A DNA stretch of 64,000 bases from Marivita sp. GX14005 (lineage in GTDB: Bacteria; Pseudomonadota; Alphaproteobacteria; Rhodobacterales; Rhodobacteraceae). Below the pieces are notes generated by a model. It was not told where the DNA came from and did no database searches. It saw only the letters and a program-made list of their open reading frames with translations. Shown one piece after another: positions 2,748 to 61,205 of this stretch; within the stretch, counting starts at the first letter, position 1; the number at the start of each line of letters is the position of its first letter. Position numbers and translations under genes: made by a program. Location: contig NZ_JAMCCQ010000001.1 in assembly GCF_023370775.1 (NCBI RefSeq), positions 930,001 through 994,000 of the forward strand, in the 5' to 3' direction.

Positions 2748-2829
2748 CTTGATGTCCTTCCTTGAAAACCGAATTATCCGCCACTCATAATGGCGAAGTT
2801 TCGAACTTCAAAGGACAAATGGCGCTTAA

Positions 2830-3450
2830 TCAGCCGACGTCAAGAAAGCAGGCCGTGCGCTCCGCCACCTGATCCGGGGTCAGATCCCGCCGGAAGAACT
2901 CGACGAACCCTTCTTCGGGCAGAACGAGATAGGAGAAGGTCGAGTGATCGACGAGGTAGTAATCGTCATCCCCCGGCTGGCGGCTGAAATAGGTGCGATA
3001 CGCCTGGCTCGCTGCCTTCACCTGCTCTTCGGACCCGGTCAGCCCGATCATGTCCTCATGCATGTTGGCGGCGTAATCGCCCACCACTTCGGGTGTGTCG
3101 CGCTTCGGATCGACGGAGATGAACACCGGTCGCACGTCATAGCCCTGCTCGGCCAGAAGATCGACGGCTTCGGCATTACGCGCGGTGTCGAGCGGGCAGA
3201 CATCGGGGCAGAAGGTATAGCCGAAATACACGAGCGAAGGTTTGGTGATCACGTCCTCGTCGGTCACCGTTTCGCCCTCGGCATTGACCAGCGTGAACGG
3301 TCCGCCGATCTGGTCCGTGCCCCCGGCAACGCTCGTCGCACGACATTCGGCGTATTGATCGCCGCCGCTCGACGGGCCGGCGACATACCAGACAGCCCCG
3401 AGCAGAACGACCAGCGCAATGGCTCCCGACGCGATTGCCAAACGGTTCAT
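2830..3450 (-). CDS. senC: SCO1/SenC/PrrC copper chaperone
   Basis: Membrane-anchored periplasmic thioredoxin-fold protein that delivers copper to the CuA centre of cytochrome c oxidase. In Rhodobacter it also affects RegB/RegA signalling. The 206-residue protein has one N-terminal membrane segment (about 5-24), the copper ligands Cys81 and Cys85 in FCPDVCP, and the third ligand His169 (VDHSTF). The start at 3450 is chosen because it gives the expected short anchor; an in-frame extension runs 78 codons further and overlaps regB. It lies between regB and regA, with 82 bases before regA, so co-transcription with regA is likely. Confidence 0.94.
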   Translation of the reverse strand: MNRLAIASGAIALVVLLGAVWYVAGPSSGGDQYAECRATSVAGGTDQIGGPFTLVNAEGETVTDEDVITKPSLVYFGYTFCPDVCPLDTARNAEAVDLLAEQGYDVRPVFISVDPKRDTPEVVGDYAANMHEDMIGLTGSEEQVKAASQAYRTYFSRQPGDDDYYLVDHSTFSYLVLPEEGFVEFFRRDLTPDQVAERTACFLDVG

Positions 3451-3568
3451 GCGATCCTCTCTTTTGTCATCGCCGACAAAGCGCTTCTCATCGAAGGCAC
3501 CTTGCCTATGCTTCGCTGCTGTGGAGGTAAGGGTTTTACCTCGGAACGCAAGCGGCGAAAGGGCGCAG
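3451..3568. promoter_or_regulatory. regB/senC divergent control region with two inverted repeats
   Basis: These 118 bases separate the divergent senC and regB starts and must hold both promoters. Two inverted repeats are visible: TTTGTC (3463-3468) with GACAAA (3475-3480), and GAGGTAA (3524-3530) with TTACCTC (3536-3542). The second lies 27 bases before the regB ATG and could form a leader hairpin or be a dimeric regulator site. RegA autoregulation is known in relatives; whether either repeat is a RegA site is not shown by the sequence. Confidence 0.5.
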
Positions 3569-4954
3569 ATGACGCAAACGGAGTTCGGCCAGTTCCAGAA
3601 AAGGCAGCGCGGCAGCTTCATCCGTCTGCGCACGATGATCCTGCTGAGATGGATGGCCGTGACCGGCCAGTTCGCCGCCATCACGCTGGCCCAGTGGTTC
3701 TACAACCTGCGGCTCGAGCTTGGCCTGTGCTACCTCGCCATAGGTGTCTCGGTGCTCGGCAACCTCGTTGCGACCTTCAGCTTCCCGCAGAACAAGCGCC
3801 TGAACGAGGCCGAGAATTTCTCGATGGTGCTGTTCGATCTGTTGCAACTGTGTTTCCTTCTCTATCTCACCGGCGGGCTGCACAACCCGTTCACGATCCT
3901 CATCCTCGGCCCGGTGATCGTCTCGGCCACGATCATGACGCTGCGCTCCACCATCATCATCGGCGGGGTCGCTCTAGCCCTTGTTACGCTGATGGTGTTC
4001 TTTCACCTGCCCCTGCGTACCGAGCAGGGATTCATCCTGCGGATCCCGGATCTCTTCGTCTTCGGCCAATGGGTGGCGATCACCATCGCGGTCGTCTTCC
4101 TGTCGCTCTACGCGCGCAAAATCACCAATGAGATGAACGCGACCGCCGATGCCGTGGTCGCGGCGCAGCTCGCGTTGAGCCGAACGCAGATGCTCAACAA
4201 CCTGGGCGGTGTCGTGGCCGCTGCCGCGCATGAGCTTGGAACGCCGCTCGCGACGATCAAGCTGACAAGCTCCGAACTGATCGAGGATCTCGATGACAGG
4301 CCCGAACAACAGGACGATGCGCGCCTGATCCGCGAACAGGCGGACCGATGCCGCGATATCCTGCGCTCCATGGGTCGGGCGGGCAAAGAGGATCTGCAAA
4401 TCCGCAGCGCTCCGCTGCTCGAACTCATCCGCGAAGCCGCCGAGCCCCATATCGACAGGGGCAAGGACGTGCGGATCGCAGGAAAGGGCCCGAACGAAAC
4501 GGCCCTCGCGCCCGAGGCACAGCGCGTGCCGGAGATCATCCACGGTCTGCGCAACCTCATCCAGAACGCCGTCGATTTCGCCCGCTCGACCGTGTGGATC
4601 GATGTGAACTGGACTGAAACCGCCATCACGATCCGCATCATGGATGACGGTCCGGGCTACCCGACGAACATGCTTGGCCGGATCGGCGATCCGTTCATGC
4701 GCACACGCCGCAGCGACCGCGACCGGGCCGCCCGCCCGGAATACGAGGGCATGGGGCTTGGGCTTTTCATCGCCAAGACGTTGCTCGAACGCAGCGGGGC
4801 ACAGCTCGGCTTTTCCAACGCAGCCTACAAGGAAGCCAGCCATCCCGAAGCGCGCGGCGCGATGGTCGAGGTCACCTGGCCGCGCGAGGCGATCGTTCCG
4901 CCCGAACGCGCTCTCGGCGAAGGGATCGGTGAGAATCAGCCCTTCGATATCTGA
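3569..4954 (+). CDS. regB: redox sensor histidine kinase RegB/PrrB/ActS
   Basis: Inner-membrane sensor kinase that phosphorylates RegA. The 461-residue protein has about six membrane segments (22-180), including GGLHNPF at 102-108, the segment that binds ubiquinone in R. capsulatus RegB. The H-box is AAHELGTPLATIKL with phospho-acceptor His221. The redox-active cysteine is present as Cys261 in EQADRCRDILRSMGR. The ATPase domain has the N-box (LRNLIQNAVDFA), DDGPGYP and GMGLGLFIAKTLL. Both redox inputs known from RegB are therefore conserved. The ATG at 3569 matches the usual family length; the open frame extends 50 codons upstream without support. Confidence 0.95.
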   Translation: MTQTEFGQFQKRQRGSFIRLRTMILLRWMAVTGQFAAITLAQWFYNLRLELGLCYLAIGVSVLGNLVATFSFPQNKRLNEAENFSMVLFDLLQLCFLLYLTGGLHNPFTILILGPVIVSATIMTLRSTIIIGGVALALVTLMVFFHLPLRTEQGFILRIPDLFVFGQWVAITIAVVFLSLYARKITNEMNATADAVVAAQLALSRTQMLNNLGGVVAAAAHELGTPLATIKLTSSELIEDLDDRPEQQDDARLIREQADRCRDILRSMGRAGKEDLQIRSAPLLELIREAAEPHIDRGKDVRIAGKGPNETALAPEAQRVPEIIHGLRNLIQNAVDFARSTVWIDVNWTETAITIRIMDDGPGYPTNMLGRIGDPFMRTRRSDRDRAARPEYEGMGLGLFIAKTLLERSGAQLGFSNAAYKEASHPEARGAMVEVTWPREAIVPPERALGEGIGENQPFDI

Positions 4955-32604: not shown

Positions 32605-33586
32605 CCGGCACCTCTTTGGCCTCGAACCCGAGCGTGTCGGGATCGAGATCGTAATGCGCGCCGCAGAACTGGCAATCGGCGGTGACGCGGCCATCCTCGG
32701 TCGTCATCTTTTCGATATCCCGCGCAGAATAGATCGACAGGCTCTGCCTGACCCGCTCTTCCGAGCACGTGCAGCCGAAACGGATCGTCTGCGCATCGAA
32801 GACGCGCGGCTGTTCCTCGTGAAACAGCCGCACCAAAAGGTCCGTCGGAGGTAGCGACGGGCCGACCAGCTCCATATCCTCGACCGTCGCGAGCAGATGG
32901 TTAGCGCGGTTCCAGTTCTCGCCCTCTTCACCGTCGAGGATATCCTCCGGCATCAACAAACCACCCTCGCCCGAAGCATCCCGCGCCACGCCGGGGGACG
33001 CCTTGGGCATGTGCTGGATCATGATCCCGCCCGCGCGCCAATGGCTCGCAACGCCCGGTTCGGTCGATTGGCCGAAACTGAGCGCGAACTTGGTCGGTAA
33101 CTGCTCGGATTGCGCGAAATATGCCTCCGCGCAATGTGCAAGCGTCGGACCGGACAGGCCGGTGATTCCTTTGTAAGGCTCCATGCCGGCGCCCTGGTCC
33201 AGCAGAACGGCGAAATACCCTTTGCCGATCTGCTCCATCGCGGGGCCATCGGTGATCTTGTCCCTGTCGAAACTGGCATAGGCCCGGATTCGCGCCGGCT
33301 CGCCCTCATTCTCAGGGGCGTAGAAATCGGTCGCGATCATCCGCACCGCGCCCTTCGATTGCACCTGCAGCGACAACTTCCAGCGCAGCTTGATCGTCTG
33401 CCCGATCAGAGCCGTCAGCAGCGCCATCTCCGCCACCAGCGCCTCGACCGCCGGGGGATAATCGTGCTGCTTGAGAATACCGCTGAGCACACCGTCGAGC
33501 CGCGCGACGCGGCCGCGAATGTCCGAGCGATCAAGCTGAAACGGCAGGACGGTATCGTCCCAAACGATTTTCGAACCAAAAGTCAT
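32597..33586 (-). CDS. hslO: redox-regulated chaperone Hsp33
   Basis: Holdase chaperone switched on by oxidation when zinc is lost from a four-cysteine site and disulfides form. The 329-residue protein has the N-terminal Hsp33 fold and the C-terminal zinc site as CTCSEER followed about 30 residues later by CQFCGAHY. Both CxC and CxxC pairs are intact. It heads the minus-strand run that continues with the NUDIX gene and cca. It is divergent from a second NUDIX gene 78 bases away. Confidence 0.95.
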   Translation of the reverse strand: MTFGSKIVWDDTVLPFQLDRSDIRGRVARLDGVLSGILKQHDYPPAVEALVAEMALLTALIGQTIKLRWKLSLQVQSKGAVRMIATDFYAPENEGEPARIRAYASFDRDKITDGPAMEQIGKGYFAVLLDQGAGMEPYKGITGLSGPTLAHCAEAYFAQSEQLPTKFALSFGQSTEPGVASHWRAGGIMIQHMPKASPGVARDASGEGGLLMPEDILDGEEGENWNRANHLLATVEDMELVGPSLPPTDLLVRLFHEEQPRVFDAQTIRFGCTCSEERVRQSLSIYSARDIEKMTTEDGRVTADCQFCGAHYDLDPDTLGFEAKEVPGE

Positions 33587-33664: not shown

Positions 33665-34126
33665 ATGCGCAGGTTCGACGATCCACCCGAACGCGGTCGG
33701 CGCTATCGGTTCCGCATGGGCGCCTATGCCATCCTGCCGGGCCCGCGCGGTGTTCTGATCACGCGTCAGGACGGGCAGGAGCGCGAATATCAACTGCCGG
33801 GCGGCGGCATCGATCCGGGCGAATCCCCGGTTCAGGCGCTGGCGCGCGAAGTGCGCGAGGAAACCGGCTGGACCATTGCCGAGCCACGCCGGCTCGGTGC
33901 CTATCGGCGCTTCACCTTTATGCCGGAATACGACATCTGGGCCGAAAAACTCTGCCTGATCTACATGGCACGGCCCATCCTTCGGCGCGGCCCACCGTCA
34001 GAGCCGGATCATACCGCGCTCTGGCTTCCCCAGCGCGACGCGCTGCGCTGGCTTTCCAATTCCGGCGACCGCGATTTTCTGCGGCGTCATGGCTCACAGG
34101 CCGCCATATTCCAGAAACGCGGCTGA
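33665..34126 (+). CDS. NUDIX hydrolase
   Basis: A 153-residue protein with a canonical NUDIX box: GGGIDPGESPVQALAREV followed by REETGW, which contains all the metal-binding glutamates. Substrate unknown. The ATG at 33665 has AAGGGGA upstream; the much longer open frame upstream is antisense to hslO. The 3' end overlaps the convergent phosphatase gene by 33 bases, an unusually deep convergent overlap. Confidence 0.87.
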   Translation: MRRFDDPPERGRRYRFRMGAYAILPGPRGVLITRQDGQEREYQLPGGGIDPGESPVQALAREVREETGWTIAEPRRLGAYRRFTFMPEYDIWAEKLCLIYMARPILRRGPPSEPDHTALWLPQRDALRWLSNSGDRDFLRRHGSQAAIFQKRG

Positions 34127-50731: not shown

Positions 50732-51637
50732 CTACCCTGTAGCGCTCAACACCATGCAAAGCGCATCCAGGTCTTCCAGCGACTCATAGGCAATCGTCAC
50801 CGTCCCGGTGTCCCCTCCCTGCCGATGGTTGATCGAAACCTTCATCCCAAGCGCCGCCGACAAATCCGCTTCGAGCGCCTTTGTATCGGCATCTTTTTCG
50901 GTCTTAGCAGAACTGGACTTAGGTTTTGTCGCCTTCGCCCCCTCGGGATTCAGTGCCGCTTTTACCAAGCGCTCCGTTTCCCGGACCGACAGCCCACGCC
51001 GAACGATATCTCCCGCCATCAATACGGGATCCGGAGCGGTCACCAGCGCACGCGCATGGCCGGCTGACAACTTCCCGTCCTGAACCGCTTTCTTGACCAC
51101 GTCCGGCAGGTTGAGCAACCGCAAGAGATTGGCGATATGGCTGCGGCTTTTGCCAAGTGCTTTCGCAAGCTGTTCCTGTGTATGGCCGAACTTGGTCATC
51201 AATTGTTCATATCCGGCCGCTTCTTCGATGGCGTTCAGATCCGCCCGCTGGATATTCTCAATGATCGCGATCTCGAGAACGTCCTCATCCGACAGGTCCC
51301 GGATGACCACCGGAAGTTCGTGCAACCCCGCTGCCTGCGCTGCGCGCCACCGCCGCTCACCCGCAACGATTTCATAGCTATCGGGATCTCCCTTCTGCCG
51401 AACGATCAACGGCTGAATGACACCCTTGCTGCGGATGGAATTCTTGAGGTCCTCAAGCGCATCCGCGTCAAACTGTCGGCGCGGCTGATCGGGGTTGGGA
51501 ACCAGCTTCTCGATCGGCACTGTCCTGTTCGGACGCGGCGCATCCTTCACAACCGCCTCGCCCGCCGGCTCGATATCCGCCATCAAGGCCGAAAGCCCGC
51601 GCCCAAGCCCACGTCTCTGTTCTTTCCTGTCCGACAT
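50732..51637 (-). CDS. parB: chromosome partitioning protein ParB
   Basis: CTP-dependent DNA clamp that loads at parS and spreads to build the segregation complex near the origin. The 301-residue protein has the N-terminal ParA-stimulating basic region (RKEQRRGLGRGLSALM), the CTP-binding GERRWRAAQ (from residue 93), a helix-turn-helix near 145-175 (QEQLAKALGKSRSHIANLLRLL) and a C-terminal dimerisation domain. It starts 9 bases after parA. Three parS sites lie just upstream, in rsmG and mnmG. Confidence 0.97.
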   Translation of the reverse strand: MSDRKEQRRGLGRGLSALMADIEPAGEAVVKDAPRPNRTVPIEKLVPNPDQPRRQFDADALEDLKNSIRSKGVIQPLIVRQKGDPDSYEIVAGERRWRAAQAAGLHELPVVIRDLSDEDVLEIAIIENIQRADLNAIEEAAGYEQLMTKFGHTQEQLAKALGKSRSHIANLLRLLNLPDVVKKAVQDGKLSAGHARALVTAPDPVLMAGDIVRRGLSVRETERLVKAALNPEGAKATKPKSSSAKTEKDADTKALEADLSAALGMKVSINHRQGGDTGTVTIAYESLEDLDALCMVLSATG

Positions 51638-51646
51638 CGGCCGATC

Positions 51647-52459
51647 CTATGCTGCTGTCATCGTCTGGTGTTTACTGAGAAATTCCCGTGCGAGCGCGCG
51701 GTAGGCCGCGGCGCCCTTGGAACCGGTATCGTAATTGAGAACCGGCATTGCAAAAGATGGCGCCTCGCTGACACGCACATTCCGGGGAATCACAGTATTG
51801 AAAACCAAATCGCCAAGATTATCGCGCGCGTCACTCTCGACCTGCTGCGAAAGGTTGTTGCGCGCGTCATACATCGTCAGGACGACACCCTCGATCCGTA
51901 AAATGGGGTTTGCCGATTGTCTCACTTCGCGAATGGTCAGCATCAACTGGCTCAGCCCTTCAAGCGCAAAGAACTCGCTTTGAAGCGGAACCATGATCGA
52001 ATGCGCAGCCACCATGGCATTGACTGTAAGCAGATTCAGGGATGGAGGACAGTCGATCAGGATGAATTCAAAACCGAAGCGCTCCATTTCCGGCTGCCGA
52101 AGCGCGTCATGCAAAAGATGGCTGCGCTTTTCGTTCGAGATCAGCTCGATATCCGCAGAGCTAAGGTCTGTTGTAGATGGTACCAGGTAGAGCCCCGCGC
52201 TCTGAGTCCGGCAGATAATGTCATTCAACGGAAAATCATCGAGGAGCAGATCATAGGTGGTGGCCTTTCGATCCTCAGGCATAATTCCCAACCCGGTGGA
52301 CGCGTTTCCCTGCGGGTCGAGGTCCACGACAAGAACCTGCCTTCCAAGTTCGGCCAGCGCCGATGCCAAGTTGATTGCTGTCGTGGTTTTCCCCACGCCG
52401 CCTTTCTGGTTGGCGACTGCAATTATCTTCGGCTTGCTGCGATCTGCCGTATCATGCAC
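51647..52459 (-). CDS. parA: chromosome partitioning ATPase ParA
   Basis: Deviant Walker-type ATPase whose gradient on the nucleoid pulls ParB-parS complexes. The 270-residue protein has NQKGGVGKTTTAIN (KGGVGKTT at 19-26, with the signature lysine), LVVDLDPQGNASTG and FILIDCPPSL. The start is GTG with GAGGA upstream, overlapping the rsmG stop by 8 bases, so rsmG, parA and parB form one transcription unit. Confidence 0.97.
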   Translation of the reverse strand: MHDTADRSKPKIIAVANQKGGVGKTTTAINLASALAELGRQVLVVDLDPQGNASTGLGIMPEDRKATTYDLLLDDFPLNDIICRTQSAGLYLVPSTTDLSSADIELISNEKRSHLLHDALRQPEMERFGFEFILIDCPPSLNLLTVNAMVAAHSIMVPLQSEFFALEGLSQLMLTIREVRQSANPILRIEGVVLTMYDARNNLSQQVESDARDNLGDLVFNTVIPRNVRVSEAPSFAMPVLNYDTGSKGAAAYRALAREFLSKHQTMTAA

Positions 52460-53045
52460 GGGATAGGTCCTCGATCCTCAAAATCACTGCCTCATCATCG
52501 GTCATACTCCGATGCGCCGCATAGGAAAAGTGCCATGTTTTCTCCGCATCTGCGACCTCTTGGCGCCAATTCGCGCCCTTCGGAAAAATCATGACTCCCC
52601 CCTTTTGCAAGTGCGACTCCGCGTAGTCGAAAAGCCTCGATAAGGGTGCCAGTGCGCGGGCGCTGATTATGTCGGCTCCTAACGGCTCGATGCACTCAAT
52701 ACGTTCCGCCAAAACGGTGAAGTCGGCGTTTGTTTCACGTGAAACAGTGCGAAGGAACACCGATTTACGCTTGTCGCTTTCGACCAAAATAGTCTTCCCC
52801 GCATCCGACGCTCCTGCGCGCGCAATTGCGATGATAGCTCCTGGAAATCCCGCCCCCGATCCAATATCCACCCAGCGCTTACCGCGCGGGCTCTCTACCG
52901 ACAACAATTGCAGCGAATCCTTAAAATGCCGTAAACGGGCGTTTTGTAGCGTTGATGGGCTCACGAGGTTGATTTTGCGCGACCATTTATCAAGAAGATG
53001 ATGGTAAACCTCCAGCCTGTCGAGTGTTTCACGTGAAACATCCAT
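52452..53045 (-). CDS. rsmG: 16S rRNA (guanine-N7-)methyltransferase RsmG (GidB)
   Basis: Methylates G527 of 16S rRNA. The 197-residue protein has the SAM motif VDIGSGAGFPGAIIAI (from residue 59) and PLSRLFDYA. It contains the peptide VSRET twice, at residues 3-7 and 101-105; each copy is encoded by a perfect parS palindrome, so the segregation sites are written into the reading frame. The ATG at 53045 overlaps the mnmG stop by one base (TGATG); a GTG one codon upstream is possible. Confidence 0.95.
   Translation of the reverse strand: MDVSRETLDRLEVYHHLLDKWSRKINLVSPSTLQNARLRHFKDSLQLLSVESPRGKRWVDIGSGAGFPGAIIAIARAGASDAGKTILVESDKRKSVFLRTVSRETNADFTVLAERIECIEPLGADIISARALAPLSRLFDYAESHLQKGGVMIFPKGANWRQEVADAEKTWHFSYAAHRSMTDDEAVILRIEDLSRA
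52731..52746. other. parS centromere site 1 (within rsmG)
   Basis: Perfect 16-bp palindrome TGTTTCACGTGAAACA, the universal chromosomal parS sequence bound by ParB. It lies in the middle of rsmG and encodes Val-Ser-Arg-Glu-Thr (residues 101-105). Confidence 0.97.
53025..53040. other. parS centromere site 2 (5' end of rsmG)
   Basis: Perfect 16-bp palindrome TGTTTCACGTGAAACA covering about codons 2-7 of rsmG and encoding Val-Ser-Arg-Glu-Thr (residues 3-7). It is 294 bases from site 1 and 1,884 bases from site 3, centre to centre. Confidence 0.97.
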
Positions 53046-54925
53046 CACGCCAGCCGCTTTTCTTTCTGGTCGCTTTTTATTTTCATGAGAATAAGCAAGA
53101 GAGCAGACGGCGTCATCCCATCCAGTCGGCTCGCCTGTGCGATATTCGCGGGTTTAGCCTCAGCCAACTTGGCGCGGAGTTCGTTGGAAAGGCCGTGCAA
53201 TGCGCCATAGTCAAAATCAAGAGGTATGGCTTGAGCCTCATCCCGTCGAAGTATGTCGATATCGCGCGCCTGTCGTGCAACATAATTCGCGTAAAGTGCC
53301 TCCTTTGAAAGCTGATCTTGTATTGCCTGGGGAACCCCACTGAGCGATGGGTCTGCTTTCGAAAGAACTGTCCAATCAACCCCCTCGATCGCCAACGCTT
53401 CAAACCCATTGCGACGAGCACCGTCGTTCGAGACAGGACCTCCACCGTCGATCAATTGCTTTGACGTGAAGGATGTTTGCGCCAAAGCGGATTTGGCTTG
53501 TTCCAAAGCGGCAAGTTTAACGGTGAACATCGCCTCGCGCTCCGGCGAGACGCATCCGATTTCCACGCCGAGTGGTGTTAATCTTTGGTCCGCATTATCT
53601 GCGCGTAGCGAGAGCCGATACTCCGCACGCGACGTGAACATGCGATACGGCTCCGACACACCGCGCGTGATCAGGTCGTCGATCATTACCCCGATATAGC
53701 TGCCTGCGCGACTGAAATGGATCGGATCACGCTTTTTCGAGCACAACGCCGCGTTCAACCCCGCGACGAGACCTTGAGCGGCAGCCTCCTCATAACCGGT
53801 CGTTCCATTGATCTGCCCGGCAAGATAAAGATTCGTCCTAATTTTCAATGACAAGTCGAGGTTCAATGCACGAGGATCGATATAGTCGTACTCGATAGCA
53901 TATCCAGGCTGCAATATTTCGGCGCTCTCCAGCCCCTTGATCGATCTCACATAGTCGATCTGGACGTCCTCTGGAAGCGACGTTGAAATGCCGTTCGGGT
54001 AAACTGTGAAATCGTCCAGACCCTCCGGTTCGAGGAAGATCTGGTGCGAGCTTTTATCGGCAAAACGCACGACTTTGTCTTCGATGGATGGGCAATATCG
54101 CGGGCCGGCACCGCCGATTTGGCCACTATACATCGCCGATCGACCCAGATTCTCGCGTATGATCTCATGGGTCCGCTCGTTGGTATGGGTGATGGCGCAG
54201 GACACCTGACGCCCCGTCGGCTTGTGAGACATGAAGGAAAAGAGCGCCGGCATCTCATCGCCCGGCTGCTTGTCCAGTGCGTTCCAATCGATGGTCCGGC
54301 CGTCCAACCGCGGCGGGGTGCCGGTTTTCAATCGGCCAAGGGGAAGATCGAGTGCGGCAAGGGTATTAGCAAGAGACGTGGAAGGCCGTTCTCCCATCCG
54401 ACCGCCAGCGATTTGGCGATCGCCGATATGGATAACTCCGCGCAAGAATGTTCCAGTGGTGAGGACCACGGCATTGGCGGTGAGGCTTCTGCAGTTGTCG
54501 AGTTCAACCGCTTCCACGCGGTCATCTCCCAAAGAAAGGTCAGTTACCTCGCCTTCGATGATGGTGATGTTGGGAAGCGCTTCGATTTCCGCCAGCATTT
54601 CGGACTGGTAGATTTTTCGATCTGCTTGCGCTCTGGGTCCTTGTACGGCCGGGCCCTTTCTCCGATTTAGAAGGCGAAACTGAATGCCCGCTTTATCCGC
54701 GACACGCCCCATAACGCCATCGAGAGCGTCGATTTCCCGGACAAGATGCCCTTTACCCAACCCCCCAATCGCGGGATTGCATGACATGACGCCAATTCCG
54801 CTCTTGGAAAGGGTTACAAGAGCTGTACGGGCGCCAAGACGGGCAGAAGCATGCACCGCTTCGCACCCGGCATGCCCACCGCCCACAACGATCACGTCGA
54901 AGTCAAATTGTTTCACGTGAAACAC
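53045..54925 (-). CDS. mnmG: tRNA uridine-34 5-carboxymethylaminomethyl synthesis enzyme MnmG (GidA)
   Basis: FAD-dependent partner of MnmE in wobble-uridine modification of tRNA. The 626-residue protein has the dinucleotide fold [14 protein letters not shown] (from residue 10), GGRMGERPS-type segment and [17 protein letters not shown]. It begins with a GTG and its first residues, MFHVKQ, are encoded by a parS palindrome. Only 3 bases separate it from the upstream mnmE stop, so mnmE and mnmG are surely co-transcribed. AAGGAG lies just before the GTG. Confidence 0.97.
54909..54924. other. parS centromere site 3 (start of mnmG)
   Basis: Perfect 16-bp palindrome TGTTTCACGTGAAACA that includes two bases of the mnmG start codon and runs to codon 6. 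It encodes Phe-His-Val-Lys, read in a different frame from the two rsmG copies. Confidence 0.97.
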
Positions 54926-56233: not shown

Positions 56234-57502
56234 TCAGGAATTCATCGAGTCGAAAAATTCCGAATTGGTCTTGGTCTGTTTGAGCTTGGAAATCAGGAAC
56301 TCGATCGCATCGGTCGTTCCCATCGGATTGAGAATCCTGCGCAGGACAAAAGTCTTTTGCAGATCGACCTTGTCGACAAGCAGGTCTTCCTTGCGTGTTC
56401 CCGATTTGAGAATGTCGATGGACGGGAAGACGCGCTTGTCCGCGATCTTGCGGTCCAGCACGATCTCGGAATTGCCCGTTCCCTTGAATTCTTCGAAAAT
56501 GACTTCGTCCATCCGGCTGCCGGTGTCGATCAGCGCGGTCGCGATGATCGTCAGCGATCCGCCCTCTTCGATATTCCGCGCCGCGCCGAAGAATCGTTTC
56601 GGCCGTTGCAGCGCGTTCGCATCCACACCACCTGTCAAAACCTTGCCGGAAGACGGCACAACCGTATTGAACGCTCTACCAAGTCTTGTGATTGAATCGA
56701 GAAGAATAACAACATCTCGTTTATGTTCGACAAGTCTCTTGGCTTTTTCGATCACCATTTCTGACACGGCAACGTGCCGTGTCGCTGGCTCATCGAAGGT
56801 GGACGAGATGACCTCGCCCTTCACCGACCGCTGCATGTCGGTGACTTCTTCGGGCCGTTCGTCGATCAGCAGGACGATAAGATAACATTCGGGATGGTTG
56901 CGCTCGATCGAATGGGCGATGTTTTGGAGCAGAACCGTTTTACCCGTGCGCGGCGGAGCAACGATGAGCGAGCGCTGGCCCTTGCCGATCGGCGCGACCA
57001 GGTCGATGATCCGGGCGGAACGATCCTTGATCGTCGGATCCTCGATTTCCATCTTCAAACGCTCATCCGGATAGAGCGGCGTGAGGTTGTCGAAGGCGAT
57101 CTTGTGTCGCGCGCGTTCGGGTTCCTGGAAATTGATCTGCCGACAATCCATCAGCGCGAAATAGCGCTCGTTATCCTCGGGCGCCTTGATCTCGCCATCG
57201 ATGGTATCGCCCGTGCGGAGCGAGAATTTGCGGATCATCTCGGGCGAGACATAGATATCGTCGGGACCGGGAAGATAGTTCGCCTCCGGGGAGCGGAGAA
57301 AGCCGAACCCGTCCTGCAGAACTTCGAGCACACCATCGCCGAAAATCGTCCAGCCTTCATCGGCGCGTTCGCGCAGGATCTGGAACATGATCTCGCCCTT
57401 GCGCATGGTCGAGGCGTTCTCGATCTCCAGCTCTTCGGCCATCGACAAGAGGTCTTTGGGGCTTTTCGCCTTGAGATCGGCAAGATTCAGTTTTTCGGTC
57501 AT
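56234..57502 (-). CDS. rho: transcription termination factor Rho
   Basis: Hexameric RNA helicase for factor-dependent termination. The 422-residue protein has the N-terminal Rho domain ([19 protein letters not shown]), the OSB-type RNA-binding [23 protein letters not shown]-loop APPRTGKT (182-189) and the Q/R-loop regions. It is the first gene of the leftward run from the putative origin and probably has its own promoter (57580-57608). A hairpin in the leader may take part in autoregulation, which is known for rho elsewhere. Confidence 0.97.
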
Positions 57503-57513
57503 GAGATATCCCG

Positions 57514-57531
57514 GACCGCAAATTCGCGGTC
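57514..57531 (-). promoter_or_regulatory. hairpin in the rho leader
   Basis: GACCGC (57514-57519) and GCGGTC (57526-57531) form a 6-bp stem with a 6-base loop, ending 11 bases before the rho ATG. It could cover the ribosome-binding region (CGGGATATCTC, itself a weak site). Confidence 0.4.
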
Positions 57532-57579
57532 ATGTCAGTTAGGTCTTTGGAAAGCATCATCCAGAACAGGACTGTCCGC

Positions 57580-57608
57580 CTCTTAGCCGAGCGGGTGCGA
57601 CCTGTCAA
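57580..57608 (-). promoter_or_regulatory. predicted sigma-70 promoter of rho
   Basis: On the minus strand a perfect TTGACA (57608-57603), a 17-base spacer and TAAGAG (57585-57580) make a plausible promoter about 80 bases before the rho start. The -10 element is weak. It sits on the rho side of the A/T-rich tract of the putative origin. Confidence 0.5.
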
Positions 57609-58003
57609 ACCGGCGATCCTCTCAATAAAAAAGAAAGAGAAAAGAAAGGTTTTTGTTTTAGATAGGGCTGCCCCTCGGCTGTGGATTATCGAGCCATCCC
57701 CGTTTTATCCCGAGGTGAACAACCCTGCCCCCATCTGTGGAGAACCTGCAGCGCTGCTTCGGCAAACGATTGGAATCGCGCCATGTTTCGGGCTGTTTAT
57801 CGATTGGTGCCGTAAACATCCAACGTGGATAAAAGTGTCGGGCCCGCTTTGCTGTGGATTGCGGAACTATCCTTTGCACAGGGCGGATAATCGCGGGGCT
57901 GCGGTTGAACGGTTTGGGTATTCATCACAAGCCTTGCCCGAAGCAGCAGTTTTCCGCAAAACATCCCGGGAAAGAAACCGCGTTTGTCCCGAAGGTTGTC
58001 CAC

Positions 58004-58603
58004 ATGAGTCTCGATCTTGCCCTCGCATCCGGCTCGACGATCCGTGCCGACATGCTGCGGAATGCAGGGCTGCGATTCGATGTGGCGGTGCCTCGGCTCG
58101 ATGAGGCGTCCATCCGCAATGCGCTTCTGGCCGAGGATGCCAGCCCGCGAGATATCGCGGATGCGCTGGCTGAGATGAAAGCGCGCAAGATATCAGACAA
58201 GCGCCCAGGCGTGCCGGTTCTGGGCTGCGATCAGATGCTTTCGGTGGATCGCGAGATCTTTGCCAAGCCCGAAACGGTGGATGAGGCGCGCGAACAGCTC
58301 TGCCGGCTGCGCAACCGCTCGCACCTCCTGCTGTCGGCGGCGGTGCTTTACGAAGATGGCAAGCCGATCTGGCGGCATGTCGGAACGGTGCGGCTCAGGA
58401 TGCGGGACTTCGGTGACGCGTATCTCGACGCCTATCTGAAGCGGAACTGGGACAGCATTCGCCACTCCGTCGGTGGCTACAAGCTGGAGGAGGAGGGCGC
58501 GCGGCTTTTCACGCAGGTTCAGGGAGACTATTTCACCGTGCTCGGACTTCCGCTACTTGAGCTTCTCAATTACCTTGCAACGACCGGACGGATCGACGGA
58601 TGA
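58004..58603 (+). CDS. maf: Maf-family nucleotide pyrophosphatase
   Basis: House-cleaning pyrophosphatase of the Maf/YceF family acting on modified or canonical nucleotides. The 199-residue protein has the substrate loop [13 protein letters not shown], the catalytic Asp76 in VLGCDQML and [10 protein letters not shown]. The ATG at 58004 is at the very edge of the origin gap, and a DnaA-box-like TTGTCCACA overlaps its first base. The longer frame upstream crosses the gap and is not family-like. It overlaps aroE by 4 bases. Confidence 0.92.
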
Positions 58604-59433
58604 GCGACGAGAAAATCCCCCTGGCCGGTGTGATCGGTCATCCGATTGCCCATTCACGTAGTCCCCGGCTGCACGCGTATTGGTTGCGCAAATACGGGCT
58701 GCGGGGGCATTACGTTCCGCTTGATATCGCGCCGGAGAAGCTTGGCGATCTGGTGCCACGGCTGGCCGATATCGGGTTCGTCGGGGCGAATGTGACGATC
58801 CCGCACAAGGAAGCGGTGATGGATTTGGCCGATCTGATCACCGACCGCGCGACCCTGATCGGCGCGGCGAATACGCTGATCTTCCGCAAGGACGGCAAGA
58901 TCCACGCCGATAATACAGATGGCTACGGGTTCATCGAGAATATCCGTCAGACGATCCCGGATTGGACGCCGAAAAGCGGCCCGGCTCTCGTTCTCGGTGC
59001 GGGCGGCGCGGCGCGGGCGGTGGTTGCTTCGCTTGTCGATATCGGGGTGCCGCAGATTCTGCTGACGAACCGCACCCGCGCCAGGGCCGAGCGGCTGCGC
59101 GAGGATTTCGGGGCGCGGGTTCAGGTGATCGACTGGGTTCAGGCGGGCAATGCGGTGGAGGAGGCCGATCTCGTGGTCAACACCACCTCTCTCGGTATGA
59201 CGGGCAAGCCCGAGCTGCGTATTCCGCTCGACGGGCTGCGACCCGGAACCATTGTTAACGATCTGGTCTACGCGCCCCTGCGGACGCGGCTTTTGACCGT
59301 CGCGGAGGAACAGGGTTGCCGGGTCGTCGATGGGCTGGGGATGTTGCTGCATCAGGCGGTGCCGGGGTTCGAGCGTTGGTTCGGCAAACGACCCGTGGTC
59401 GATGAAAACCTGCGTGCGGCGGTGCTGCGGTGA
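58600..59433 (+). CDS. aroE: shikimate 5-dehydrogenase
   Basis: NADPH-dependent reduction of 3-dehydroshikimate in aromatic amino acid synthesis. The 277-residue protein has the substrate motif [20 protein letters not shown] with the catalytic Lys, NTDGYGF with the catalytic Asp, and the NADP motif LGAGGAARA. Start ATG overlaps the maf stop; the stop overlaps the coaE GTG start by 4 bases. Confidence 0.96.
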
Positions 59434-60023
59434 CCTATCGGCTGGGGCTGACCGGATCCATCGGCATGGGCAAATCGACGACGGCGGAGATGTTCGCCGA
59501 TGAAGGCTGCGCGGTCTGGGATGCGGATGCGGCGGTGCATCGGCTCTATGCAAAGGGCGGCGCGGCGGTCGCGCCGATGCGCGCGGCCTATCCCGGCGCG
59601 GTCACCGAAGATGCGGTGGACCGGGCCGCTCTGCGCAAAATCATAGCAGATGATCCTGACGCGTTGCGGGCGATCGAGCGGATCGTGCATCCTTTGGTGA
59701 AAGCGGATCGGGATATGTTTGCGGCAGAGGCGCAGGCGGATATCCTCGTCTTTGATATTCCATTGCTCTTCGAAACTGGGGCCGAGAGTGAGATGGATGC
59801 GGTTGCATGTGTCACTATTCCGGCCGATTTGCAGGAAAGTCGCGTGTTGGAGCGTGGCACGATGGACCGCGATGCGTTTATCGCCATTCGTGACAAGCAG
59901 ATGCCGAACGCGGAGAAATGCCGGCGCTCGGATTTCGTGATCGAAACCGATACGCTCGAGCATGCGCGTTGCCAGGTGCGCGATGTGGTGGCGCAGATCA
60001 GGGAGCGGATGAAAGATGCGTGA
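59430..60023 (+). CDS. coaE: dephospho-CoA kinase
   Basis: Last step of coenzyme A synthesis: phosphorylates dephospho-CoA. The 197-residue protein has the P-loop [11 protein letters not shown] (7-17), [12 protein letters not shown] and DIPLLFETG. It starts with GTG (GTGA overlap with aroE) and ends 8 bases inside dnaQ, so maf, aroE, coaE and dnaQ form one tightly coupled operon. Confidence 0.96.
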
Positions 60024-60699
60024 GATCGTTCTGGATACGGAAACCACCGGATTCGAGCCGGATCAGGGCGACCGCATCGTCGAGATCGGGGCGGTGGAGC
60101 TTTACAACCACGTTCCGACCGGGCGGACGTATCACCAGTATATCAACCCAGAACGCGCCATGCCGCAGGAGGCGTTCGAAGTGCACGGGCTCGGGGATGA
60201 TTTCCTGCGCGACAAGCCGATCTTCTTCCATGTCGCACAAGCCTTCATCGATTTCGTCGGCGATGCGAAGCTGGTCATTCACAACGCCGCGTTCGACATG
60301 AAATTCCTCAATGCCGAACTGGGTTGGGTGAAACGTCCTCCGATTCCGTTCGACCGGGCGATCGACACGCTCGCCATCGCGCGGCGCAAGTTTCCCGGCT
60401 CGCCGTCGTCGCTAGATGCGCTCTGCCGGCGCTTCGGGATCGACAATTCGGCGCGCACGTTGCACGGCGCGCTTCTCGATTCCGAGATCCTCGCGGAAGT
60501 GTATCTTGAACTCATCGGCGGCAAGCAGCCCGATTTCGGGCTGAGCGTATCGCGCGGAAGGTCGGGCGGCGCCGATCAGGATTGGCGCCCGCAACCACGG
60601 CCCGCGCCCCTGCCGCCGCGGATCACCGAAAACGAAAAGGCGGCTCACGCCGCCTTTGTCGAGAAGCTTGGTGAAAATGCGCTCTGGCGCCGGGTTTAG
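60016..60699 (+). CDS. dnaQ: DNA polymerase III epsilon subunit (proofreading exonuclease)
   Basis: 3'-5' exonuclease that proofreads for the replicative polymerase. The 227-residue protein has the DEDDh set: Asp7 and Glu9 in VLDTETTG, Asp in [10 protein letters not shown] and the late [12 protein letters not shown] proline-rich tail ([23 protein letters not shown]) leads to the polymerase-binding C-terminus. The codons for EKAAHAAF overlap a hairpin that looks like the secB terminator on the opposite strand. The stop overlaps that of secB. Confidence 0.95.
60636..60657 (-). terminator. secB intrinsic terminator embedded in dnaQ
   Basis: AAAGGCGGC (60636-60644) and GCCGCCTTT (60649-60657) form a perfect 9-bp stem with a 4-base loop. 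Read on the minus strand it is followed by a T-rich run (TTTTCGTTTT counting the end of the stem). It lies 39 bases beyond the secB stop but entirely inside the dnaQ coding sequence. Confidence 0.65.
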
Positions 60700-61205
60700 G
60701 CGTCCGCCTTTTCCGACTGCTGCGCCTGCGCCCGGCGGGCCAATTCCGAGCGATACAGCTGAACGAAATCGATGTTTTCGAGGTTCAGCGGCGGGAAACC
60801 GCCATCGCGGGTCACATCGCTGACGATGCGGCGGACGAAGGGGAAGAGCATCCGCGGACATTCGATCAGCAGGAACGGGTGCATCTGATCTTCCGGCACG
60901 TTCTCCACGTGGAAGACGCCGGCATATTCCAGCTCGAGCATGAAGAGCGTGTCGCCGCTTTCCTTGGCTTTCGACGTGACCTGAACCTTCAGGATCACTT
61001 CGAACTGATGCTCGACCGTGCGCTTCTTGGCGTCGAGATTGACCTGAAGCTGCACATCGGGCTGCACCTCGCCCTGAACGCCCTTCTGCGCGAGGATGTT
61101 CTCGAACGACAGATCGCGCACGAATTGCGCAAGGACGTTCATCTTGATCGGCGCGGCTTTCTGTTCCGCTGCGCCATTGGTGGCGGGTTCCGGCGTATCG
61201 GTCAT
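60696..61205 (-). CDS. secB: protein-export chaperone SecB
   Basis: Tetrameric cytosolic chaperone that holds preproteins for SecA. The 169-residue protein has the SecB core [39 protein letters not shown] and [25 protein letters not shown], plus an alphaproteobacterial C-terminal extension rich in Ala, Arg and Gln. It converges with dnaQ with overlapping stop codons (TTAG). It stands 54 bases from fxsA on the same strand. Confidence 0.96.

Follow-up and report, generated by a model that had tools for sequence, protein, structure and literature searches.

The gap between the rho and maf genes is almost certainly the DnaA-dependent replication origin (oriC) of the main chromosome in Marivita sp. 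GX14005, as far as this can be read from the sequences of the genome and its relatives. This reading draws on a switch in GC skew, a cluster of DnaA boxes, an A/T-rich tract, parS sites nearby, and box positions that recur in relatives. The conclusion that the origin is of the ordinary alphaproteobacterial type, in the place typical of the family, is well supported. The window analysed here is a stretch of 64,000 nucleotides, positions 930001-994000 of contig C1 in a 3.45-Mb draft genome of 11 contigs; coordinates without a contig name refer to the window. Its closest relatives among the named genomes belong to Marivita, with Maf at most 80% and Rho at most 98.6% identical.

An earlier note, made from the letters of the window, described the gap as the only gene-free stretch above 300 bases, flanked by divergent genes and holding an A/T-rich tract and at least four one-mismatch DnaA boxes, with parAB-parS nearby. 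All of this is borne out. On the minus strand, rho (56234-57502; over the TIGR00767 cut-off) starts at 57502. On the plus strand, maf (58004-58603; matches to NF002690 and TIGR00172, both below their cut-offs) starts at 58004. Between them lie the 501 bp, 57503-58003, that we assign to oriC on the skew switch, the box cluster and conservation. Beyond maf follow aroE, coaE and dnaQ on the plus strand and secB on the minus strand (58600-61205; families over cut-off). The claim that no other gene-free stretch exceeds 300 bases holds within a crude codon-usage gene caller, with which we searched the window for gaps of at least 250 bp. It returned four: the rho-maf gap, a runner-up of exactly 300 bp (33794-34093), and two that are false. 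One of these, 2748-3568, contains an open reading frame at 2830-3684 that looks SCO1/SenC-like by eye, and the other, 52460-53044, is occupied by the rsmG reading frame. A search with Rfam gave no RNA match up to E = 1 in 57400-58100 or in L014:2900-3700, from another genus.

How unusual is the composition of the gap? Measured in 50-bp steps, positions 57601-57675 are 60-66% A+T, and the gap as a whole is 52.9% G+C. Taken in 2-kb steps, the window is for the most part 60-66% G+C, but from 50 to 59 kb the value is itself only 54-59%, so the gap falls just a little below its surroundings. The tract at 57626-57660 is a probable DNA unwinding element, judged by composition and alignment. Relatives carry a similar A/T-rich tract after the box that corresponds to the one at 57680. 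At the level of sequence, then, the A/T-rich element that a DnaA-dependent oriC should have beside its boxes is present.

The turning point in GC skew expected of such an origin is found at the same place. Within the window the cumulative G-C curve has its minimum at 56,829, 0.7 kb from the gap, and the sign of its 8-kb blocks changes from negative in the seven up to 56 kb to positive in the last. The rest of contig C1 agrees: to the left of the window 13 of 16 stretches are negative and three barely positive (at most 0.002), and to the right all four are positive. In a relative assembled as one contig of 3,558,757 bases (G019), a walk over the last 119 kb places the minimum at 3,475,899, inside rho. 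The distance to the rho-maf interval is 1.0 kb and that to the intergenic part of the interval about 1.6 kb, the difference being due to an extra gene located between rho and the origin. The left arm of this chromosome is negative in 12 of 12 stretches and the right arm positive in 18 of 22 (negative in the other four); the reverse switch falls between 1.44 and 1.62 Mb. Two further relatives are less sharp. G029, sampled up to its last megabase, has a local minimum 18 kb from the gap, with 7 of 7 stretches negative on the left and 10 of 12 positive and two negative on the right. G061 is negative over the 20 kb to the left of maf and climbs only gradually on the right, with its local minimum 19 kb from maf. 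Both are consistent with an origin at the gap, to within about 20 kb only. The check on skew that the earlier note had named thus gives a turning point at the gap in the window; in three relatives the turning point falls 1 to 19 kb from these two genes. This outcome supports the proposal, already made there, that the gap is oriC, and independent support comes from the clustering of boxes and from conservation between species.

Compared with the consensus TTATCCACA, the gap holds four boxes with one mismatch, all within 325 bp, and five with two mismatches; no perfect box occurs in the window. The first one-mismatch box, TAATCCACA (57680-57688, minus strand), adjoins the A/T-rich tract, and the same 9-mer is found in 38 of the 56 loci, out of the 80 described below, that have TGTGGA 300-385 bp before maf. 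Next comes TTCTCCACA (57736-57744, minus), at -268 of maf, where five loci have a box. The third, TTATCCACG (57824-57832, minus; -180 of maf), is not aligned with boxes of the other Marivita-type rows, but relatives repeatedly have minus-strand boxes between -179 and -202. The last, TTGTCCACA (57996-58004, plus), ends with an A that also opens the start codon of maf.

We compared this cluster with 501-bp spans of 462 kb of the genome, made up of the window and 20 other stretches. No other span has more than two one-mismatch boxes, against four in the gap, and with the pattern TTWTNCACA at one mismatch the gap has six against three in the next-best span. The cluster therefore exceeds chance, as it should in a DnaA-dependent oriC. 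Over the whole genome there is no excess of the one-mismatch motif, which has 247 matches where the reversed pattern has 309; it is thus the clustering alone that stands out. Positions are given for 100 of these 247 matches, with one-mismatch sites up to C1:1,068,007. The single dnaA gene over cut-off lies about 45 kb to the right of the gap.

The boxes recur across the family. From the best 80 of 134 maf relatives in named genomes we dropped one locus (L032) that is without rho, leaving 79, which with the window make 80 loci; 867 windows of equal length downstream served as controls. Over the 400 bp upstream of maf, the loci average 3.14 boxes of at most one mismatch per 401 bp, and the controls 0.119. 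At least three boxes are present in 56 of the 80 loci and in none of the 867 controls, where the maximum is two. A perfect box is present in 34 loci and absent from 46. The earlier note had called the absence of a perfect box notable; it is instead common, and the high-affinity box of Caulobacter, TGATCCACA, likewise has one mismatch (PMC4285127). With no perfect box, firing would probably depend on cooperative loading of DnaA onto the weaker ones.

Thirteen rows of the alignment are Marivita-type: 12 loci, one of them (L005) from a metagenome-assembled genome, and the window. Their gaps are only 50-58% identical to that of the window, yet some blocks are fully kept: the rho leader hairpin, a promoter-like pair before rho, the A/T-rich tract, the TAATCCACA box (which reads AAATCCACA in L008), the element TTATCC-N4-CACA, and some 60 bp running into the maf start. 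The element lies at -136/-137 of maf in 13 of 13 rows, 12 of them exact; the window has one mismatch (CTATCCTTTGCACA, 57867-57880, plus). In the 462 kb of the window's genome there is no exact copy and there are nine with one mismatch, including this one. With at most one mismatch, the element also occurs at -135 to -138 in L020, L022, L028, L061, L070 and L077.

The box on the maf start codon recurs at a constant position. In 69 of the 80 loci the start codon is at the aligned place, and the other 11 were dropped. Scored against TTATCCACA, positions -8 to +1 are perfect in 16 loci, have one mismatch in 39 and two in three (58 of 69 with at most two). Thus 55 of 69 loci have a box of at most one mismatch at exactly this position, its last A beginning the start codon, whereas eight shifted offsets, taken as a control, give 0 or 1 loci each. 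In six Aliiroseovarius loci (L036, L040, L042, L043, L046 and L047) the nearest of the boxes listed is at -19, which indicates that the box can move while staying upstream. This suggests that it is the origin, not maf, for which the box is conserved. Among class-level genomes outside the family, 21 of 24 have a Maf match. The 21 best outside loci are L160-L180; three of them, L168, L170 and L173, have at least three one-mismatch boxes within 420 bp upstream of the gene. A box at exactly -8 is found in none of the 21, several of whose matches are weak and may be Maf paralogues.

Could the start-codon box act on maf itself? Maf is a nucleotide pyrophosphatase, and its gene is linked to the septum. 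On its upstream side the box borders a G-rich stretch that is probably the ribosome-binding site, and it fills the space from there to the start codon. In Rhodobacteraceae the origin might then have its right edge fixed on maf in such a way that bound DnaA blocks maf transcription and assembly of the origin switches the gene; we regard this as unlikely. If true, it would tie the clean-up of the nucleotide pool, or division, to initiation with no separate regulator. Among the papers listed by our searches of an open-licence library, no title or abstract opening mentions a box on the maf start codon.

To the left of the gap lies the partition system. The parB and parA genes occupy 50732-52459 on the minus strand: the product of 50732-51637 is over the cut-off of a ParB-family domain model, and that of 51647-52459 matches ParA-type models, all those shown being below their cut-offs. 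Beside them a motif search finds three perfect parS sites, TGTTTCACGTGAAACA at 52731-52746 and two more at 53025-53040 and 54909-54924, 2.6-4.8 kb left of the gap. The window has one further site with two mismatches, at 32811, and 20 other stretches of C1 have none with at most two. The perfect sites lie inside reading frames, one at the start of mnmG (residues FHVK) and two in rsmG (residues VSRET), so that centromere and protein sequence are kept together.

Two other explanations of the gap deserve consideration. It might be merely a divergent promoter region, serving rho to the left and, under DnaA control, maf to the right, with the origin elsewhere. The promoter-like pair before rho, kept in all 13 Marivita-type rows, and the DnaA box on the maf start codon both speak for this, as does a site on contig C5 (G000:C5:196925-197008, L241), where two perfect boxes (196925 and 196978) and a weaker third, TTATCCCCA, fall within 84 bp outside the 462-kb sample. 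The skew, however, turns at the rho-maf gap and shows no sustained flip at the C5 site; parS sites lie beside the gap; and at least three boxes kept in 56 of 80 loci would be unexpected for a promoter region. We therefore consider this explanation very improbable. The C5 trio, which we rejected as an origin for the lack of a sustained flip, has an exonuclease III-like reading frame (by eye) downstream and is possibly a DnaA-regulated promoter or a titration site. Perfect boxes on contig C4 (736076 and 736530), with three boxes in about 460 bp and mixed skew, were also considered as an origin and set aside.

The box cluster might instead be a DnaA-titration or reactivation site near the true origin and separate from it. 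Sites of this kind are likewise clusters of DnaA boxes, and parS and parAB locate an origin only to within some kilobases. But here the A/T-rich tract adjoins the terminal box, the skew minimum is about 1 kb or less from the rho-maf pair in two genomes, and after checking the window has no other gap above 300 bp. This explanation seems to us the less probable of the two, by a little, and hardly tenable.

If the rho-maf gap is oriC, its layout suggests how it might work. DnaA would occupy the array of boxes, whose ends are the start-codon box of maf and TAATCCACA (57680). Starting from the latter, it would spread to the left, cross a short spacer, and reach and melt the A/T-rich tract (57626-57660). 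Helicases would load at the melted tract and two forks depart, one through rho, mnmE, mnmG, parAB and parS, the other through maf, aroE, coaE and dnaQ. ParB bound to the three parS sites would then separate the copied origins. The coordinate of the origin is now fixed for Marivita-type genomes, and the gap before maf, with its DnaA box on the start codon, gives the family a landmark, of use in orienting draft genomes and in estimating growth rates from coverage. Two small leads on how assembly of the origin affects neighbouring genes, both open to test, are the start-codon box and the Marivita-type element.

The left flank differs among genera. On the minus strand we find by eye a probable rho promoter (57580-57608), TTGACA at 57608-57603 and, after 17 nt, TAAGAG at 57585-57580. 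Both hexamers are kept in 13 of 13 Marivita-type rows, and it is this conservation that makes the reading probable; a consensus promoter scanner reports no promoter at the site. Nearer the rho start, a leader hairpin (GACCGC/GCGGTC; 57514-57531, minus) was found by eye in the alignment. Its stem letters covary in several Marivita-type rows and look broken in L006, again by eye, and the fold of the leader has a z of only -1.39. The stretch after the promoter, 57549-57597 on the minus strand, is strongly kept in the Marivita-type rows. Several other genera have a CCCGTCCGGG-like palindrome at the leader position.

Two loci of other genera have an open reading frame of 149-153 amino acids between rho and the origin (L014:3147-3596 and L110:2890-3351). 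The L014 product scores 133.1 bits against HemJ, just below the cut-off of 138.05. The spacing from rho to maf exceeds 900 bp in 61 of 80 loci, which leaves room for hemJ and suggests that hemJ stands there. In the other 19, including all 13 Marivita-type rows, it is below 600 bp and leaves none. Most Rhodobacteraceae loci thus seem to have hemJ between rho and the origin, and the Marivita type differs in having none; most likely, loss of hemJ put rho next to the origin. By this spacing, hemJ has apparently been lost from the place more than once. The window's genome keeps two UPF0093 relatives elsewhere. The earlier note had taken rho to stand in place of hemE. That rho is the left neighbour is correct; the simple swap is not, as hemJ intervenes in the two loci of other genera. 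The hemE gene itself lies on the same contig at C1:312010, about 675 kb from the gap.

Like Cori of Caulobacter crescentus, where the one-mismatch boxes are of high affinity, this is an alphaproteobacterial DnaA origin with one-mismatch boxes, an A/T-rich region and further weak boxes (PMC1914354, PMC4285127). The boundary genes differ. Caulobacter oriC lies between hemE and COG1806/DUF299 (PMC1914354), so maf is not its direct neighbour and a right-hand neighbour of the maf type, given for Caulobacter in the earlier note, is mistaken; here the boundary genes are rho and maf, and COG1806 (PF03618) has no match in the window's genome. An Ori-Finder survey predicted oriC in 101 Rhodobacteraceae chromosomes (PMC6699656), and our origin resembles these predictions in its skew minimum, DnaA boxes and nearby parAB. 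The main text of that survey names neither 'maf' nor 'hemE' (PMC6699656).

As in the basal unwinding system of the Bacillus subtilis type (BUS), a box faces the A/T-rich tract over a short spacer. A published rule asks for at least three 3'-NAN-5' DnaA-trios within 16 bp of a DnaA box (PMC8287927). The window does not follow it, and 11 of the 56 loci do, against 11.7 in shuffled sequence. In 38 of 56 loci CTA (3'-GAT-5' on the other strand) follows the box at 13 or 14 nt; counting every offset from 2 to 17, it is found in 46 of the 56, where shuffles give 16.9. The recurrence of CTA and, in other genera, a TCATCATC-like pattern had suggested a basal unwinding system, an idea that we dropped because the trio rule did no better than shuffles. 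In view of the CTA counts, a diverged form of such an unwinding element may exist.

Consensus sites for CtrA (TTAA-N7-TTAA) and IHF, which would be expected of a Cori-like origin, are absent from the 400 bp before maf in the window. The exact CtrA pattern occurs somewhere in 10 of the 80 loci, which suggests that CtrA may control the origin in some Roseobacter-type lineages, not including the window. In L034, L038, L051, L067 and L076 it stands at -36/-37 of maf.
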